DNA from: an uncultured Acidimicrobiia bacterium
Lineage (GTDB): Bacteria; Actinomycetota; Acidimicrobiia; Acidimicrobiales; CAIXPF01
Reading direction: 5' to 3'
Length of the DNA stretch: 44,699 nt
Assembly: GCA_903921205.1 (NCBI GenBank)
Contig: CAIXPF010000081.1
Coordinates: 1-44,699, forward strand
Position 1 is the stretch's first letter. Every line of letters starts with the position of its first letter. Both the position numbers and the translations under genes were made by a program. Shown here piece after piece: positions 3,331-11,838 of this stretch. The notes below the pieces were generated by a model. The model was not told the origin of the DNA. It did no database searches and saw nothing but the letters and a program-made list of their open reading frames with translations.

Positions 3331-4959
3331 ATGACCGTGACCGAGAGCAAACCGGAGGAGGTGGTACCCGACCTGGGTGCCGCTCCGGCACAACCTGCCC
3401 TCCCGCCTGAACCACCCAGCGGCATCGCTGGCGTCCTGGGAACGGCGGACCACAAAACCGTCGGCCGGCTCTATGTCGGGTTCTCGCTGCTGTTCCTGGC
3501 GGCCTTCCTCGTCACGAGCGCCCTGGTCAACGCCGAGGCCATGGATGCAGCTTCGTTGTCGATCCTCGACGGCAACTCGTTCTTCCAGGTCCAGACGCTT
3601 TCGCAGATCGGCGTGGTGTTCCTCGGGCTGATGCCGGCCTTCCTCGGCCTGGCGCTGTTCGTGGTGCCGCTGCAGGTCGGCTCGCCCACCATCGCCTTCC
3701 CCCGAGCGGCCGCCGCCTCGTTCTGGGGTTGGTTGCTCGGTGCCGGCCTCCTCATCGCCGCCTACATCGGCAACGGCGGGCCCATCGGTGGCAACAGCGA
3801 CATGGTGAAGCTGTTCTTCGTGGCCTTCGCCATGGTGATCCTCTCGCTCGGCCTTGCCTCGGTGTGCGTGGTCACCACGGTCGCCACCGCTCGTGCCCGG
3901 GGCATGAGCCTGATGCGGGTGCCCCTGTTCTCCTGGTCCATGCTCGTGGCCGGCAGCATGTGGCTGCTCAATACCGCGGCGCTGTTGGCGAACCTGCTGA
4001 TCGTCTACATCGACACCACCCACGGCCAGGTCCTCTACGGAGCCCCGGCCAATCGGTGGATCCAGCTCACCTGGATCTTCGCCCAGCCTGCGGTGCTGAC
4101 CTTCGCCCTTCCCCTGCTCGGCATCCTGGGTGACGCCACCACAGTCGCCACCCGGATCCGCCCGGCACGGTACGGCGTGAGCCTCGGGGCAATCGGCGCT
4201 GCGGGCGCGCTCACCTTCGGGGCCTACGCCCAGACCGCCTTCAACCCGGCGCTCATCACCGAAGGGCTGTTCGTCCTGCAGAGCCTGGCCGTCATCCTGC
4301 CCCTCCTGGCGCTGCTCGGCGGCGTCGCCGACTCGGTACGCCGGGGCCGCCTCCGTCCGACGTCGGCGTTCCTGGTCGCGGTAGCCGGCATGCTGCTGCT
4401 GCTCGGGGCCGCGGTCGCCGGTGGTCTCTACGCCCTCGAGCCCTTGAACCTTGGTTTCACCGTGTGGGGTGCCGGTGTCGGTAACGCCGCAACGGCCGCC
4501 GCTGTCGCCGGTATCGCTGCCGGGGTGTTCCACTGGGGTTCGAAGATCTGGGGTCACCGCGTCGCCGAACCGATCGGCAAGCTGGTCTTCCTGGCTGTTC
4601 TGGCCGGTGGCGCGCTCTACGCCGCAGGACAGCTGATCGCCGGGGCCAACGGCCAGTTGCCGGTCCTTCCCGACGGCACCGTCGACAGCGTGGCAGCGAA
4701 TGCCGAGCTCGGGGCGATGCTGTCGACCGTCGGGTGTGCACTCCTGGCGGTGGTCACGGTTCTGGTGATCCTCGCCGCACTGCCTGCGGCCTTGCGCCGG
4801 GGTCCGAAGGCCGACGCCGATCCCTGGGGCGGCCAGACGCTCGAGTGGGCCACGTCCTCGCCGCCTCCCCACGGGAACTTCCTGGGCCCGATCGCCGAGG
4901 TGACGAGCCCGAGTCCGCTGCTCGACGTCCGCGAGGGCGCTGCAAAGGAGATCGTCTGA
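3331..4959 (+). CDS. Cytochrome oxidase subunit I paralogue lacking all metal ligands
   Basis: A 542-residue, roughly 12-TM protein with the heme-copper oxidase subunit I fold. It aligns end to end with the catalytic CtaD at 7855: DHKTVGRLYVG against DHKKIGIMYGA, PLQVGSPTIAFPR against PLQIGARDVAFPR, ADPWGGQTLEW against ADPWDARSLEW. Every ligand position is changed. The heme a His (CtaD His94) is replaced at TLSQIG (Ser91). The CuB motif GHPEVY becomes AQPAVL (Gln252, Leu256). The His-His pair becomes AQT (301-302). HFH becomes GAG. The D-channel Asp is Thr120. It therefore cannot bind heme or copper in the normal way. It overlaps the next gene by 1 nt and is probably a structural or assembly subunit (inference). 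The start ATG at 3331 has no strong Shine-Dalgarno site. Confidence 0.85.
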   Translation: MTVTESKPEEVVPDLGAAPAQPALPPEPPSGIAGVLGTADHKTVGRLYVGFSLLFLAAFLVTSALVNAEAMDAASLSILDGNSFFQVQTLSQIGVVFLGLMPAFLGLALFVVPLQVGSPTIAFPRAAAASFWGWLLGAGLLIAAYIGNGGPIGGNSDMVKLFFVAFAMVILSLGLASVCVVTTVATARARGMSLMRVPLFSWSMLVAGSMWLLNTAALLANLLIVYIDTTHGQVLYGAPANRWIQLTWIFAQPAVLTFALPLLGILGDATTVATRIRPARYGVSLGAIGAAGALTFGAYAQTAFNPALITEGLFVLQSLAVILPLLALLGGVADSVRRGRLRPTSAFLVAVAGMLLLLGAAVAGGLYALEPLNLGFTVWGAGVGNAATAAAVAGIAAGVFHWGSKIWGHRVAEPIGKLVFLAVLAGGALYAAGQLIAGANGQLPVLPDGTVDSVAANAELGAMLSTVGCALLAVVTVLVILAALPAALRRGPKADADPWGGQTLEWATSSPPPHGNFLGPIAEVTSPSPLLDVREGAAKEIV

Positions 4960-5561
4960 TGGCTGCCTCTGTCGTGTCCGTCTCCACGGCCCCGCCGGCC
5001 CCGCCGCAGCGGCCGCGAACCCTCCTGGTCGGCACCGCCATCACGGCCTGCACGATCGGCTTCGCCATCTTCTGCATGGTCGGGCTCTACCTGGCCCGTC
5101 GGTCCGACGTGCTCAACACCGGCCAGAAGTGGCTGCCCAAGGGTTCGGTCATCCCGCTGCCCCAGCCCAACATGATGTTCGTCACGCTGCTGATCAGCTG
5201 TGTCACGCTGGCCTGGGGTGCGTACGCACTGCGCCGTGACGACCGTCAGAACGCCTACGTGGCCCTGGGCCTGACCACCCTGCTGGCCTTCGCCTACGTG
5301 GTGCAGGCCACGTACCTGTTCTCCATCAGCGGCGTCACGGTCGACGCTCCGCTCGGCCAGGGTGTGCTGTTCTGGGCCATCTCCGGTACGCACCTGGCCA
5401 TGGTTATCGGGGGCATGGTCTTCATGCTGCTGGTGACCCTTCGAGCCCTCTTCGGTGGTTATCGTCAGTTGCCCGAGGGCGTGACGGCCGCCGCCATCTA
5501 CTGGTCCATCACCGTCGGCGTCTACGCGGTCGTCTGGTACGCCGTCTACATCACCAAGTAA
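4959..5561 (+). CDS. Cytochrome oxidase subunit III-like paralogue
   Basis: A 200-residue membrane protein with about five TM helices, resembling heme-copper oxidase subunit III, best seen in the last two helices: THLAMVIGGMVFMLLVTLRA and IYWSITVGVYAVVWYAVYI. These align with HGAHVLIGIVILMT and YWHFVDVVWVVIF of the canonical CtaE at 9866. The conserved His and Asp of the YWHFVD motif are lost (YWSITV), and the helix bearing the conserved GSE glutamate has no equivalent. The ATG overlaps the upstream stop (TGATG), and AAAGGAG lies 9 nt before it, so it is translationally coupled to the degenerate subunit I. The two probably form a pair. Confidence 0.75.
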   Translation: MAASVVSVSTAPPAPPQRPRTLLVGTAITACTIGFAIFCMVGLYLARRSDVLNTGQKWLPKGSVIPLPQPNMMFVTLLISCVTLAWGAYALRRDDRQNAYVALGLTTLLAFAYVVQATYLFSISGVTVDAPLGQGVLFWAISGTHLAMVIGGMVFMLLVTLRALFGGYRQLPEGVTAAAIYWSITVGVYAVVWYAVYITK

Positions 5562-5576: not shown

Positions 5577-6488
5577 ATGATTACGACGGGCGCCAAGTTC
5601 TACTTCGGTCTCGGATTCCTCCTGCTCGTGGCGGCCGTGCTCTACGGCTGGACGAGCGGCGGTGTCGACTGGGGCCTCTTCCCCGGCCACCTCGGTGACC
5701 TGTACTTCGAGATGCTCGGTGCGCTGACCCTGGGCTACAAGGGCGCCGTCGGTGACCACCTCGGCTACGGGGTGCTCCTCGGAGGCGCCGCGGCCTCGAC
5801 GACCATCGGCTCGTTCATGGTCGCCTTCCGTGACGCCGACGACAAGCCACTCGCCGAGGTCGCCGGCCTTCCGGTCGCTCCGCCGCTGCAGCCGGTGAGC
5901 AGCAGCAACGTCTGGGCCACCATCGGCGCCTTCGCCGTGGCGGTCATCGCCGTCGGCGTCGCCACGAGCGGATGGTTCATCATCGCCGGTGCCGTGCTGT
6001 TGACGATCGCCGCCCTCGAATGGGCGATGTACGCCTGGGCAGATCGCGCCACCGGCGACGCCGCGGTCAACGCCTCGCTGCGCAACAAGATCATGAATCC
6101 GATCGAGGTGCCGCTGTTCGGGGCGATCGTCGCCCTGTTCATCGCGCTGTCGATCAGCCGTCTGTTCCTCACCGTGCCCAAGCTGTCGGCGACCTGGCTG
6201 TTCCTGGGTATCGCCGCCCTCATCTTCGTGACGGCCATCGCCTTGGCGGCTGCGCCGAAGGTACCGAAGGCGGCGGTGCGTGGCCTGTTGGCGCTCGCGG
6301 CGATCGCGGTTCTGGCCATCGGTATCGCCGGTGCGGTCACCGGTCCTCGGGAGTTCCACAACGAGGACGAGGAGTTCACCGTCGAGGGCACCGGTGGACC
6401 CGAGGATCTCTACGTCTACGGTCAGGTCCCGACCACCACGGCTGCGGTGCAGGAACAGTCCGGTCACTCCGAGAAGAAGGGTGAGTGA
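5577..6488 (+). CDS. Extended actinobacterial subunit IV (CtaF)-like membrane protein
   Basis: A 303-residue protein with about seven TM helices. The first helix (FGLGFLLLVAAVLYGWTSGG) and the region 110-155 (helix pair ending ALEWAMYAWAD) resemble the two-part layout of actinobacterial cytochrome c oxidase subunit IV, which is normally about 130-150 residues. Here the family-like part is followed by a conserved-looking loop (ASLRNKIMNPIEVPLFG), three more helices, and an acidic C-terminal tail (about 257-303) with REFHNEDEEF and SGHSEKK. The family assignment is moderate because it rests on pattern similarity. The gene starts 15 nt after the subunit III-like gene, with GAGG about 11 nt upstream. 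It probably belongs to the oxidase complex. Confidence 0.6.
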   Translation: MITTGAKFYFGLGFLLLVAAVLYGWTSGGVDWGLFPGHLGDLYFEMLGALTLGYKGAVGDHLGYGVLLGGAAASTTIGSFMVAFRDADDKPLAEVAGLPVAPPLQPVSSSNVWATIGAFAVAVIAVGVATSGWFIIAGAVLLTIAALEWAMYAWADRATGDAAVNASLRNKIMNPIEVPLFGAIVALFIALSISRLFLTVPKLSATWLFLGIAALIFVTAIALAAAPKVPKAAVRGLLALAAIAVLAIGIAGAVTGPREFHNEDEEFTVEGTGGPEDLYVYGQVPTTTAAVQEQSGHSEKKGE

Positions 6489-6594: not shown

Positions 6595-7812
6595 ATGTCG
6601 CCGAAGTACGACCACCTCAAGCGGGTCCGCAAGTACGTGACCGTGCTGCTGGGCGTCTCTCTTCTCGCCCTGGCCGGCTGTGGTTCCGAGCGCACCCCGC
6701 TCACGACGCTCGACCCCCGGGGTGAGGCGTCGCAGGCGATCCAGAACCTCGTCGTGCCCGTCTTCATCGTGGCCGGCATCGTGTTCGTGTTCATCAACGT
6801 CGGTGTGCTCTACGTGGCCGTCCGTTTCCGCCGTCGCAAGGGCGAGGAGAACGAGTTCCCCGAGCAGGTTCACGGCAACACCAAGCTCGAGCTGGGCTGG
6901 ACCATCATCCCGGCGCTGATCATGGCCGGTATCGCCGTCGGCACCGTCGCCACCCTGGTGACGCTGAACACCGAGCCCGACAACACCGCCAAGGACTTCG
7001 AGGTCCGCGTCGTCGGTCAGCAGTGGTGGTGGCAGTTCGAGTACGACCTCGGACGTGACGGCACCGTCGACTTCGTGACTGCGAGCGAGATGGTCATTCC
7101 GACGGGCGTCCCGGTGGACCTGACCATGACCTCCCGTGACGTGATCCACAGCTTCTGGATCCCGGCGTTGAACGGCAAGAAGGACGCTGCGCCGGGTCGG
7201 CTGAGCAAGCTGTGGATGCAAGCAGATGAGGAGGGCCGCTTCATCGGTCAGTGCACCGAGTTCTGCGGGCTCTCCCACGCCTACATGCGCATGTACGCCG
7301 TTGCGAAGTCACCGGCCGACTTCGACAAGTGGGTCGCCGGTCAGATGACCAATGCGAAGATCCCCGCAGCGGGCACCGCCGAGCGGCGGGGCCTCGAGGC
7401 CTTCACCGGTAACTGCGCCGGCTGCCACCTGATCAGCGGGGTCAACACCCCCGACTGCACGCCGATCAAGACCGAGGCCGAGTACGACGCCAAGGCCAAC
7501 ACCTGCTGGGTCGGGGCTTCGCCGTACACCGGTGCGCCCCAGGTGTCCGGCATGGCGCCGAACCTGACCCATCTGATGACCCGCTACGTCTTCGTCGGTG
7601 CGCTCTACGAACTGCGCAACGTCGACACCGGTGAGATCAACGTGAACAACCTCGAGGGCTGGATCCGCAACCCCGAGGACTACAAGCCGATGGCACCCGA
7701 ACCCACCCGGGGCAATACGTACGGCCGCGGCATGCCGAAGATCAACCTCACCGAGGATCAGATCGACGATCTGGTCGCCTACCTCTCCACGCTCGCGCCG
7801 ACGAGCGCCTGA
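6595..7812 (+). CDS. ctaC: Cytochrome c oxidase subunit II with fused cytochrome c (caa3 type)
   Basis: A 405-residue lipoprotein that takes electrons from cytochrome c or a quinol-cytochrome c reductase into the oxidase. The lipobox LALAGC gives Cys29. Two TM helices follow (about 52-76 and 102-124), then the CuA cupredoxin domain. All CuA ligands are present: His185, Cys220, Glu222, Cys224, His228 and Met231 (CTEFCGLSHAYM). A C-terminal class I cytochrome c domain has CAGCH (274-278) and a probable distal Met380 (YGRGMP). Between them is an insert with two extra cysteines (288, 304). The ATG at 6595 was chosen for its K/R-rich signal n-region. The GTG at 6556, with GAGG 8 nt upstream, is a real alternative. 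Confidence 0.95.
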   Translation: MSPKYDHLKRVRKYVTVLLGVSLLALAGCGSERTPLTTLDPRGEASQAIQNLVVPVFIVAGIVFVFINVGVLYVAVRFRRRKGEENEFPEQVHGNTKLELGWTIIPALIMAGIAVGTVATLVTLNTEPDNTAKDFEVRVVGQQWWWQFEYDLGRDGTVDFVTASEMVIPTGVPVDLTMTSRDVIHSFWIPALNGKKDAAPGRLSKLWMQADEEGRFIGQCTEFCGLSHAYMRMYAVAKSPADFDKWVAGQMTNAKIPAAGTAERRGLEAFTGNCAGCHLISGVNTPDCTPIKTEAEYDAKANTCWVGASPYTGAPQVSGMAPNLTHLMTRYVFVGALYELRNVDTGEINVNNLEGWIRNPEDYKPMAPEPTRGNTYGRGMPKINLTEDQIDDLVAYLSTLAPTSA

Positions 7813-7854: not shown

Positions 7855-9552
7855 ATGGCCCTCGTTGAACGAGAACCACTCGCCCTGCCATCCGGAGCGG
7901 GTACCGGCGTTGCCGTCGAACCGCTCGGTGTGCTGGCGCGGCCGCACACCAAGACGGGCTGGCGCTCCTGGGTGTCGACGGTCGACCACAAGAAGATCGG
8001 CATCATGTATGGCGCCGCGGCGCTGCTGTTCTTCCTCGTGGGCGGCCTCGAGGCCATGCTGATCCGCATCCAGTTGGCCCAGCCCAACGGCACCGTGCTC
8101 AGCGCCGACGTGTACAACCAGGTGTACACGATGCACGGCGTGACCATGGTCTTCCTCGTGATCATGCCGATGGCTGCGGCCTTCGCCAACTACCTGCTGC
8201 CCTTGCAGATCGGCGCCCGTGACGTCGCCTTTCCCCGGCTGAACGCCCTGAGCTTCTGGATGTTCCTCGGCGGCGGTCTGTTCTTCAACACCGCCTGGTT
8301 CGTGGGCGGCGGTGGGGCCGACTGCGGATGGTTCTGCTACGCGCCGAACTCCGGCGTGGCCTTCTCGCCGACCCACGGCGTCGACTTCTACGCCGTCGGC
8401 CTGCAGATCGCCGGCGCGGCATCGCTCATCGGTGCGGTCAACCTGATCGTGACGGTGCTCAACATGCGGGCCCCGGGCATGACGCTGTTCCGCATGCCGG
8501 TGTTCACCTGGATGCAGTTGGTCGTGCAGTTCCTGCTGCTGTTCTCGCTGCCGGTCATCACGGTCGCCCTGTTCCTGCTGACCTTCGACCGGTCCTTCGG
8601 GGCGAACTTCTTCAACATCTCCCAGGGCGCCGATCCGCTCCTGTGGCAGCACTTGTTCTGGATCTTCGGTCACCCGGAGGTCTACATCTTGATCCTGCCC
8701 TCCTTCGGCATCGTCTCGGAGATCATCCCGACGATGTCCCGCAAGCCCATCTACGGCTACCCGTTCATGGTGTTCTCGGGTATCGCCATCGGCTTCATGG
8801 GCTGGGGCGTCTGGGCCCACCACATGTTCGCCTCGGGTCTCGGGCCCATCTCGGTGGCCGCCTTCTCGCTCTCGACGATGTTCATCGCCGTGCCGACCGG
8901 GGTGAAGATCCTCAACTGGATGGCCACCATGTGGGGCGGCAAGATCACCTTCAACACCCCGATGCTGTTCTCGGCAGGCCTGGTGGCGATGTTCACCATC
9001 GGTGGCCTGTCGGGCGTCACCCACTCGGTCGCCCCGGCCGACACCCAGCAGACCGACACGTACTACATCGTCGCCCACTTCCACTACGTGCTCTTCGGCG
9101 GTGCGCTGCTCGGTCTGTTCGCCGGCATGTACTTCTGGTGGCCGAAGGCCTTCGGGCTCATGCTCAACGAGCGCTTGGGCAAGGTGCACTTCTGGGTGAT
9201 CCTCGTCGGCTTCAACCTGACGTTCGGACCGATGCACATCCTCGGTCTGCAGGGCATGTCCCGGCGGATCCAGACCTACCAGCCCTCCGACGGCTTCACG
9301 TTCTGGAACCGGGTGGCGACCCTTGGCGTCTTCGTCATCGCCGTGGCGATGTTGGTCTTCCTCTACAACATCTACGCGAGCTGGTCGTCGTGGAAGAAGG
9401 CCGGCCGTCCCAACCCTGGTGCCGACCCGTGGGACGCCCGGTCGCTCGAGTGGAGCATCCCCTCGCCGACACCGGAGCACAACTTCGACGTCATCCCCGA
9501 GGTCCATGGCCAGGACGACTTCTGGCACCGCAAGTACGGTGAGGACGAGTAG
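7855..9552 (+). CDS. ctaD: Cytochrome c oxidase subunit I, catalytic
   Basis: A 565-residue, 12-TM catalytic subunit that reduces oxygen and pumps protons. Ligands seen: His94 (TMHGVTM, heme a), His273 and the cross-link Tyr277 (GHPEVY), His322-His323 (WAHHMF), and His408/His410 (AHFHYV). The D-channel entrance Asp123 (GARDVAFPR), Glu275 and the K-channel Lys351 (PTGVKI) are also present, so this is an A-type oxidase. AAGGA lies 8 nt before the ATG. The gene ends at TAG 9550-9552. The same frame stays open past that codon into the next gene, which looks like the C-terminal tail of a longer CtaD. Confidence 0.97.
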   Translation: MALVEREPLALPSGAGTGVAVEPLGVLARPHTKTGWRSWVSTVDHKKIGIMYGAAALLFFLVGGLEAMLIRIQLAQPNGTVLSADVYNQVYTMHGVTMVFLVIMPMAAAFANYLLPLQIGARDVAFPRLNALSFWMFLGGGLFFNTAWFVGGGGADCGWFCYAPNSGVAFSPTHGVDFYAVGLQIAGAASLIGAVNLIVTVLNMRAPGMTLFRMPVFTWMQLVVQFLLLFSLPVITVALFLLTFDRSFGANFFNISQGADPLLWQHLFWIFGHPEVYILILPSFGIVSEIIPTMSRKPIYGYPFMVFSGIAIGFMGWGVWAHHMFASGLGPISVAAFSLSTMFIAVPTGVKILNWMATMWGGKITFNTPMLFSAGLVAMFTIGGLSGVTHSVAPADTQQTDTYYIVAHFHYVLFGGALLGLFAGMYFWWPKAFGLMLNERLGKVHFWVILVGFNLTFGPMHILGLQGMSRRIQTYQPSDGFTFWNRVATLGVFVIAVAMLVFLYNIYASWSSWKKAGRPNPGADPWDARSLEWSIPSPTPEHNFDVIPEVHGQDDFWHRKYGEDE

Positions 9553-9588: not shown

Positions 9589-9873
9589 GTGCAGAAGGGC
9601 GACGCCACGGGTGTTCACCTGCCGTCGCCGTCCTTCTACCCGCTGATCCTGGCCGGGGCGCTGCCGATCATCGGCTACGGCGTGATCTTCAACCGCTTGA
9701 TCGCGATTCCCGGCCTGGTGCTGTTCCTGTTCGGTCTCTACGGCTGGGCGTTCGAGCCGGCCACCGAGCCCGACGACCACGCCGGAGACGGGGGCCATGG
9801 TGCCCACGGCGGTGGCGATCACGACGGAGCAGCCCTGGCGGCGCCCAGCACCGAGGAGGCCCACGTTGGCTGA
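9589..9873 (+). CDS. Small two-helix oxidase protein, detached CtaD tail
   Basis: A 94-residue protein with two TM helices (SPSFYPLILAGALPIIGYGV and IPGLVLFLFGLYGWAF) and a His/Gly/Asp-rich C-terminus (GHGAHGGGDHDGA). The HLPSPSFYP helix-pair ending GWAFEP resembles the extra C-terminal region that I recall from some actinobacterial and related subunit I proteins. It is in the same frame as ctaD and separated from it by a single in-frame TAG plus 12 sense codons. The GTG at 9589 has GAGGA 4 nt upstream, so independent translation is plausible. It overlaps ctaE by 8 nt. Confidence 0.7.
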   Translation: MQKGDATGVHLPSPSFYPLILAGALPIIGYGVIFNRLIAIPGLVLFLFGLYGWAFEPATEPDDHAGDGGHGAHGGGDHDGAALAAPSTEEAHVG

Positions 9874-10516
9874 GACCTTGACCGCACCTGCCGAGGGCGG
9901 GCATGCGGCCCACGACGACCACGGTCACGAGACCAACACCGGCATCACCAACGAAAAGCTCGGGATGTGGTTGTTCCTGGGTTCGGAGTGCTTGCTCTTC
10001 GGTGGCCTGATCTCCACCTTCCTGCTGTACAAGAAGAAGCTCAACACCTTCCCGGGCTTCGAGAACACCACCATCGTGCGTCTCGGCCGCAACGTGTTCG
10101 ACATCCCGTTCACCTCGGTGTCGAGCTTCGTGCTGCTGATGAGCTCGCTGACGATGGTGCTGGCGGTCTCCGCGCTCACCCGTGACGACCAACGGCGGAT
10201 GCGCACGTGGCTGCTGGCCACGGTGTTCCTGGGCTCGACCTTCCTCGCCGGTCAGGTGTACGAGTTCACGGCATTCGTGAAGGAAGGGTTGGGCTACACC
10301 ACCAACATCTTCAGCTCGGCCTTCTACACGCTCACCGGGTTCCACGGTGCGCACGTGCTGATCGGCATCGTCATCCTGATGACCATGTTCGCCCGGTCGC
10401 TGCAGGGCAAGCTGCGGGCCCGCAATGCCGAGACCCTCGAGATCGCCGGCCTCTACTGGCACTTCGTCGACGTGGTGTGGGTCGTCATCTTCGTCGTTGT
10501 CTACCTCATCAAGTAA
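9866..10516 (+). CDS. ctaE: Cytochrome c oxidase subunit III
   Basis: A 216-residue membrane subunit with about five TM helices. It stabilises the proton-uptake side of subunit I. Family motifs are visible: MWLFLGSECLLFGGL with the conserved Glu, TGFHGAHVLIG, and YWHFVDVVWVVIF near the C-terminus. The N-terminus is His-rich (GGHAAHDDHGHE). The start is the TTG at 9866, preceded by GAGGAGG at a 6-nt spacing and overlapping the upstream stop. The frame extends upstream to 9797 but that segment lies inside the previous gene. Confidence 0.95.
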   Translation: MAETLTAPAEGGHAAHDDHGHETNTGITNEKLGMWLFLGSECLLFGGLISTFLLYKKKLNTFPGFENTTIVRLGRNVFDIPFTSVSSFVLLMSSLTMVLAVSALTRDDQRRMRTWLLATVFLGSTFLAGQVYEFTAFVKEGLGYTTNIFSSAFYTLTGFHGAHVLIGIVILMTMFARSLQGKLRARNAETLEIAGLYWHFVDVVWVVIFVVVYLIK

Positions 10517-10546: not shown

Positions 10547-10921
10547 GTGAGCGCTGAAACCGTGGCCACCGCCACCACAGGACATCCGGAGCACGCCGAT
10601 CACGGCGGCGAGGTGCACGAGAGCCACGACCGCATGTACGTGAAGATCGCCTGTATCCTGGCGGTTCTCACGTTCTTGGAGATGCTCACCTACTTCGAGA
10701 GCATCTGGCCCGATGGCGTCGAGCGCTATTTCGCAGCCGTGCTGTTGGTGCTGATGGGCATCAAGTTCTACTTGATCTCTGCGTATTTCATGCACCTGCG
10801 CTGGGACAAGCCCGTCCTCAAGCGAGTGTTCATCACCGGAATCGTGATTGCCGTCGTCGTGTACCTGATCATGCTGACGGCCTTCAACTTCTGGAGCGGC
10901 CCGGGGGTCATGCCCCACTGA
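10547..10921 (+). CDS. Cytochrome c oxidase subunit IV, prokaryotic small type
   Basis: A 124-residue protein with three TM helices and a His-rich N-terminal tail (GHPEHADHGGEVHESHD). The segment YVKIACILAVLTFLEMLTYF, then LMGIKFYLISAYFMHLRWDK, is typical of the COX4-like family (PF03626), the fourth subunit of bacterial caa3- and bo-type oxidases. It lies 30 nt after ctaE. The GTG start has GGAG upstream in CAGGAGACC. It is distinct from the much longer subunit-IV-like gene at 5577. Confidence 0.9.
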   Translation: MSAETVATATTGHPEHADHGGEVHESHDRMYVKIACILAVLTFLEMLTYFESIWPDGVERYFAAVLLVLMGIKFYLISAYFMHLRWDKPVLKRVFITGIVIAVVVYLIMLTAFNFWSGPGVMPH

Positions 10922-10935
10922 CCGGAGGAGCCTTC

Positions 10936-11838
10936 GTGGCGATTCTCGGTGCGCAAGGACCACTGACCTGGCAACCACACCCCGAGGTGTGGTTACTGGT
11001 CGGGATGGTGGTCGGCCTGGGGTTCTACGTGACCCGGGTCATCCAGCCCAAGATGGTGGCGCTGGGGGAGGAACCGGTCACCCGTCGTCAGAAGCGGTTC
11101 TTCGCCGCTGCAGTGCTGGTGCTGTGGCTGGCATCGGACTGGCCGGTGCACGACCTGTCGGAGGAGTACCTCTACTCCATCCACATGGTGCAGCACATGG
11201 TGCTGACCCTGGTGATGCCCCCGCTGTTCCTGTTCGCAACGCCGGCATGGCTGGTGCGGCTCATCCTCGGGGCGGGTCGGGTCGGTCCGGTGTTGCAGAA
11301 GATGGGGCGGCCGCTGTTCGCTGCGCTGCTGTACAACGGGTTGCTGGTGCTGACCCACGCAGCGCCGCTGGTCAACGCCTCGGTCAAGATCGGGCCGCTG
11401 CACTACGTGCTGCACGTGTCGTTGGTGCTTGCGGCGCTGCTGATGTGGAACCCGGTGTGCGGGCCGCTGCCCGAGATGCGGCTGTCGCTGCCCGCTCAGA
11501 TGGCCTACCTGTTCGGGATGTCGATCATCCCGACGATCCCAGCGGCGTTCCTGACCGTGGCGGAGAACCCGATCTACCGTGCCTACGAGCGGGGCCCCTA
11601 TCGGCTCTGGGGGGTGTCGATCATCTCCGACCAGCAGGCGGCGGGGCTGATCATGAAGCTCGGCGGTGGCTTCTACCTGTGGGGTCTGATCATCATCCTG
11701 TTCGCCCAGTGGGCGACGCGCCATCAAGCCACCGAGCGGGCGGCGGTCACCCGGACCCACGAGGACGTCCTCACCTTCGAACAGGTACGGAGCACCTTCG
11801 AGGAGTCCGAGCCGCCGGCTTCTGAGCTGCGTTCCTGA
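10936..11838 (+). CDS. ctaG: Cytochrome c oxidase assembly protein, Caa3_CtaG family
   Basis: A 300-residue protein with about seven TM helices, matching the caa3-type CtaG family (PF09678), which is needed for assembly or copper delivery to the oxidase. Recognisable segments are YLYSIHMVQHMVLTLVMPPL with its two histidines, HYVLHVSLVLAALLMWNPV, and SIISDQQAAGLIMKLGGGFY. The cytoplasmic C-terminus is charged. GGAGGAG sits 5 nt before the GTG start, 14 nt after the subunit IV stop. It is the last gene of the oxidase run and converges on the ABC transporter genes across 72 bp. Confidence 0.93.
   Translation: MAILGAQGPLTWQPHPEVWLLVGMVVGLGFYVTRVIQPKMVALGEEPVTRRQKRFFAAAVLVLWLASDWPVHDLSEEYLYSIHMVQHMVLTLVMPPLFLFATPAWLVRLILGAGRVGPVLQKMGRPLFAALLYNGLLVLTHAAPLVNASVKIGPLHYVLHVSLVLAALLMWNPVCGPLPEMRLSLPAQMAYLFGMSIIPTIPAAFLTVAENPIYRAYERGPYRLWGVSIISDQQAAGLIMKLGGGFYLWGLIIILFAQWATRHQATERAAVTRTHEDVLTFEQVRSTFEESEPPASELRS

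Follow-up and report, generated by a model that had tools for sequence, protein, structure and literature searches.

A ligandless paralogue of cytochrome oxidase subunit I and its partner genes at the head of a caa3 operon in Acidimicrobiia

The heme-copper oxidases take their definition from their ligands. What role, then, is left for a protein that keeps the subunit I fold, lacks these ligands and is encoded in a caa3 operon beside a complete catalytic subunit? Such a gene, here called I', lies near one end of the window, by which we mean the whole stretch of DNA analysed (44,699 nucleotides from an uncultured Acidimicrobiia bacterium). The initial annotation held that its product preserves the entire subunit I fold and C-terminal tail, has lost every functional residue of the neighbouring CtaD, and is probably under selection for a non-catalytic role; structural partner, assembly platform or half of a heterodimer were offered as what it might be. 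The features of the operon are these.

3331-4959, plus strand: I', ligandless subunit I paralogue of 542 aa (PF00115, 2.2e-35; ligand columns; AlphaFold model overlaid on a PDB structure)
4959-5561, plus strand: III', CtaE/COX3 paralogue (PF00510, 41.5 bits against a cut-off of 23.8, searched from 4971)
5577-6488, plus strand: IV' (ORF303), CtaF-like N-terminal half fused to a membrane C-terminal half (family profile)
6595-7812, plus strand: ctaC, encoding subunit II and its cytochrome c domain (matches to COX2 and cytochrome c)
7855-9552, plus strand: ctaD, catalytic subunit I with all ligands (PF00115, 4.4e-155; TIGR02891 over cut-off; ligand columns)
9589-9873, plus strand: short CtaF-like protein (PF12270, 26.2 bits, cut-off 26.9)
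9797-10516, plus strand: ctaE, subunit III, start provisional (PF00510, 1.2e-25)
10547-10921, plus strand: COX4-type small subunit (PF03626, 38.7 bits)
10936-11838, plus strand: ctaG, assembly factor (PF09678, 1.7e-39)

Thus I', III' and IV' head a ctaC-ctaD-ctaE-ctaG operon. The short CtaF-like gene, which in the window overlaps the longest ctaE frame, is joined to CtaD in a single frame in several relatives (for example L032, L033 and L035). A promoter scan returned no sites (0.6 expected) and a terminator scan nine (4.0 expected), one of them within I' at 3555-3576.

Subunit I fold and empty ligand positions

The I' frame runs uninterrupted from ATG to TGA, with no internal stop over 542 aa. 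It belongs to the COX1 sequence family (PF00115, 122.8 bits, cut-off 34.8) and falls far below the curated cut-off of the CtaD equivalog TIGR02891 (191.8 bits versus 670.75). Its residue columns were read by alignment to the CtaD encoded in the same window. None of the six histidines that bind heme a, heme a3 and CuB is present: H94 and H273 of CtaD correspond to S91 and Q252, the pair H322/H323 to Q301/T302, and H408 and H410 to V383 and N385. The cross-linked tyrosine Y277 is replaced by L256 and E275 by A254, and every K- or D-channel position examined has changed as well (K351 to L328, N112 to L109, D123 to T120, N130 to A127). I' therefore has none of the tested residues of a functional subunit I, as the initial annotation had stated.

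The fold is predicted to be intact. The AlphaFold model is confident and helical (pLDDT 88.6, pTM 0.90) and overlays mycobacterial CtaD (6adq_F) over 498 residues with a Z score of 39.4, an rmsd of 2.9 Å and 26% identity, so that the 12-helix subunit I fold is recognised in the predicted structure; the C-terminal LEW tail is likewise conserved among homologues. Both parts of the earlier description of the fold hold. Loops II-III and IV-V and the C-terminal tail are prominent in the per-helix conservation of I', the same as in CtaD, and no clear partner interface emerges from this profile.

Relocation of the ligands within I' is ruled out by the conservation of histidine and cysteine and by the AlphaFold model, and this objection to the original claim fails. 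The protein has only five histidines, of which H41 alone is conserved in the family (57/65 rows), is also present in CtaD, and is the only one among the His and Cys columns to reach at least 60% of rows. C179 (38/65) and H401 (20/65) recur within the helices of main-clade I' proteins. A recent duplication of ctaD is ruled out too, by the 29% identity between I' and the CtaD of the window (protein search) and by the separate position of I' in the tree, where a single branch splits the two groups (a quick search with long branches). On its modelled structure, I' is a retained subunit I fold with empty active sites; by sequence and fold it is inside a known superfamily and outside the enzymatic definition of that superfamily. 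Not every protein that matches COX1 is an oxidase.

Partner genes, selection and gene order

The gene does not stand alone. The start codon of III', a member of the COX3 family, overlaps the stop codon of I' (TGATG, 4957-4961). IV' of the window has no Pfam or NCBIfam match over cut-off, including PF12270 (cut-off 26.9; an IV' homologue in L044 reaches 20.3 bits), and carries no cupredoxin domain. A profile built from its relatives matches true CtaF with its N-terminal half, including the L131 protein, which itself scores 175 bits to PF12270. The C-terminal half is homologous to a separate membrane protein that other Actinomycetota encode close to ctaG in their caa3 operons; in 12 of 15 such loci (L072-L086) this protein ends in a cupredoxin-like domain, judged by reading the tails, and Pfam reports Cupredoxin_1 in the one that was submitted (L075). 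The structure model of ORF303 is weak (pTM 0.46), and a fold search with it gave nothing at E ≤0.001, the top hit being a chain of the C. glutamicum supercomplex (7q21_F, E 0.22). Two homologues of IV' (L044:4907-6061 and L054:5497-6603) carry a long C-terminal extension in which the pattern of copper ligands is missing; it may be a cupredoxin that has degenerated.

According to PMC8361435, subunit III is represented in M. smegmatis by CtaE and CtaF jointly. Since III' is a CtaE paralogue and IV' is CtaF-like, the module amounts to a further I+III set that lacks subunit II, and 'dead half-complex' is a better name for it than 'dead subunit'. In this respect the first description needs amending: the dead subunit I belongs, with two other gene products, to a paralogous module.

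I' and III' are under purifying selection. Between I' and its nearest relative (L032) dN/dS is 0.098, and over 25 pairs, some of which contain the same genome twice, it ranges from 0.066 to 0.269; for III' it is 0.075. These are simple Nei-Gojobori estimates, with synonymous sites saturated in some pairs. The rate of I' is nevertheless roughly four times that of CtaD (mean distance 1.44 versus 0.38), and CtaD had the lower dN/dS in all eight pairs where both were measured. No internal stops were found in the listed relatives of at least 34% identity; two I' rows (G765 and G691) show one stop each at the extreme edge of the match. The open frames and the dN/dS range rule out a pseudogene, so the objection that the gene might be decaying fails as well. 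I' also occurs in four single-contig genomes (G002, G110, G190 and G706).

The spread of the module was surveyed across genomes. Relatives of known class are all Acidimicrobiia, and Ferrithrix thermotolerans and Candidatus Microthrix are among them. A match to IV' turned up in 201 of the 298 genomes sampled from the order (154 of the 227 good ones), some of these matches being possibly partial. The 97 genomes with no IV' match include the complete G014 and also G750, which is of the window's own genus (88% complete, 480 contigs). Among the matches listed for 396 genomes of the phylum, near-full-length ones came from the window's order and the others covered one half of the protein.

Gene order is fixed to a large extent. 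Of 93 loci with I', ctaD is seen in 50, and every one of these reads I', III', IV', ctaC, ctaD, a count in which only profiled genes are visible and repeats of one place are included (L045 and L090, for example, are the same); the remaining loci are short fetches or contig ends, judging by their lengths. Later-fetched loci, where long enough, have the same order except L186 (G666), in which I' and III' are followed by only the CtaF-like half of IV' and the next 4.9 kb contain neither ctaC nor ctaD. Some 4.7 kb of other genes separates IV' from ctaC in L041, L045 and L090. A gene for a ZnuA-type metal-binding protein lies after IV' and before ctaC in two loci (L041:11897-13713 and L042:11853-12866), followed in L041 by an ABC transporter ATPase gene, also before ctaC. 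Alignments A1, A2 and A3 contain 39, 39 and 38 rows. Distances of I' and CtaD correlate across 29 loci (r 0.84; none of 5000 permutations as high), a result that shared ancestry alone could also produce.

In the window's genome, estimated to be 100% complete in 208 contigs, the protein search found two COX1 proteins, I' and CtaD. The family search found the same two, and its silence on further COX1 is weaker evidence because it missed its Corynebacterium glutamicum control. With no other COX1 and no cytochrome bd match in this genome, the module sits with the sole terminal oxidase found there. A frame of 264 residues matches cytochrome b over 124 of 169 positions. By reading, a bc-type complex is encoded elsewhere in the genome (G000:C64; L195:3197-6857); its cytochrome b is divided between two frames, each about 260 aa long, and the other components are a Rieske protein and a c-type cytochrome that carries a pair of CxxCH motifs.

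Graded ligand loss and the cupredoxin domain

The emptiness of I' is not uniform among its homologues, and here the initial picture of a complete loss needs a second correction. In 100 distinct I' proteins from 145 loci with I', the CuB triad is never present and any CuB histidine is seen in only four, while the a3 histidine is found in 13, the heme-a histidine pair in 25 and the pair together with the a3 ligand in 11; 57 have none of the six. Proteins with the pair mostly have a type-1 copper motif on the accompanying IV'. The states follow the tree to some degree. A group of 17 (L089, L114, L163-L175, L182 and L185) contains nine proteins with the pair and a3, five with the pair alone and three without the pair; a group of eight (L090, L176-L181 and L183) has the heme-a pair alone; and the main clade, including the window, lacks it in 72 of 75. 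One main-clade protein (L193), deep in the clade, has apparent histidines at both heme-a columns and no cupredoxin on IV'. Glutamine is the commonest residue at two of the former CuB histidine columns (40/70 and 53/70 rows, both in 34/70; 70 of 73 distinct rows were counted, three fragments being left out).

The cupredoxin motif is present on IV' in 22 of the 25 cases with the heme-a pair versus 1 of 63 without it, a further 12 being unreadable. The count rests on a letter pattern, with which Pfam agreed in all four proteins submitted (P0003 of L041, L075, L089 and L114). The two look like cofactors lost together. This is only suggestive, given that the tree requires about five changes of the heme-a pair and about three of the motif, and that an independent-pairs test was not significant with so few events. 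From this graded loss, and the type-1 copper motif that mostly goes with the heme-a pair, it is probable that the module passed electrons, with no O2 chemistry, before it became a pure scaffold. Living homologues without CuB only, without CuB and a3, or without everything form a natural series for studying the fold without its metals, and as such intermediates exist the question is testable.

Possible roles and relation to known oxidases

We consider that cofactor-free I' probably serves the caa3 oxidase as a structural component without catalytic activity, acting in a pseudo-core with III' and IV', and put the probability of this at roughly 0.55. For its membership of the complex the evidence consists of gene order, overlap and co-inheritance. 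I', III' and IV' would form a pseudo I+III core with no subunit II, and this would bind the catalytic CtaC-CtaD-CtaE core to give an asymmetric complex IV, in which it might serve structure or stability. In such a history the oxidase core would first have been copied without ctaC; every surviving copy seen would then have lost CuB, and most of them the a3 ligand too. Some lineages would have retained the heme-a histidine pair and the cupredoxin on IV', so that electrons could still pass, at that earlier stage via one low-spin heme and the cupredoxin. In the main clade, including the window, both would have been lost, leaving a scaffold. This role is favoured by the fold without ligands, purifying selection, the stop/start overlap, the fixed order, co-inheritance, the separate branch of I' from CtaD, the lack of a second oxidase operon among the COX1 and cytochrome bd matches in the window's genome, and the graded states. 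It is weakened by the faster evolution of I', the 97 of 298 genomes without an IV' match, the L186 arrangement, the want of an interface in the conservation profile and the chance that co-inheritance merely reflects ancestry. The selected, non-catalytic role proposed at the outset is supported by open frames, dN/dS of about 0.1, conservation in the order and place in the operon, with the two changes described above.

It is also possible, and we suggest this tentatively, that the former oxidase core became a redox side-module of another oxidase. I', as a membrane cytochrome of the oxidase fold with a single heme and a tethered cupredoxin, would then feed or buffer electrons for caa3 in some lineages; in the window's lineage the cofactors would be gone and the module would persist as the dead half of an asymmetric complex IV.

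Two further explanations appear unlikely. I' could be an assembly factor, a transient template or holding platform for CtaD, CtaE and their cofactors that is absent from the finished oxidase. Such a role needs no cofactor ligands and would suit the nearby ctaG and the ctaA and ctaB genes upstream (the latter two by reading only), but a set of I, III and CtaF-like parts seemingly exceeds the needs of a chaperone, and the heme-a pair and cupredoxin retained in some lineages fit it less well; neither point is decisive. Just as improbable, in our estimation, is an independent membrane complex with another job, such as ion or small-molecule passage or quinone binding, that is merely co-expressed with caa3. 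The loss of the oxidase channels along with the ligands, the L186 module with no adjoining ctaC-ctaD and the gap before ctaC in three loci would agree with it; the near-fixed position of the module before ctaC-ctaD across sampled loci argues against it.

Binding of a redox cofactor via other residues of I' is very improbable: the recurrence of C179 and H401 and the apparent heme-a pair of L193 speak for it, but the one well-conserved His or Cys is shared with CtaD. A decaying duplicate or assembly artefact can practically be dismissed, for despite the loss of all tested catalytic residues and the faster evolution of I', relatives keep open frames, dN/dS is far below 1 and the gene is present in single-contig genomes.

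Complex IV in the carriers may be built in a way not seen so far. Across much of a bacterial order, a selected, ligandless subunit I of the oxidase fold occurs beside the working enzyme, and a search of the open-access literature by title and start of abstract found no description of such a subunit within an oxidase operon, or of such a module.

With the CtaD of A-type heme-copper oxidases (mycobacterial 6adq and 7rh5, Thermus caa3 2yev) I' shares the full-length fold, the C-terminal tail and the operon setting; unlike them, it lacks the heme and CuB ligands, the cross-linked tyrosine and the K- and D-channel residues. The cupredoxin membrane protein that follows ctaG in other Actinomycetota (L072-L083) is homologous to the C-terminal half of IV' but is a separate gene, whereas IV' of the window is a fusion without cupredoxin. 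CydB of cytochrome bd, which shares the fold of its catalytic subunit and is poor in cofactors, is alike as a structural partner but belongs to a different superfamily, and the partner set here comprises three subunits beside a full oxidase. A further comparison is with the actinobacterial CtaC-CtaD-CtaE-CtaF core (PMC8361435): the module repeats its I, CtaE and CtaF parts, but unlike that core it has no subunit II, and its CtaF part is fused to an extra membrane domain.
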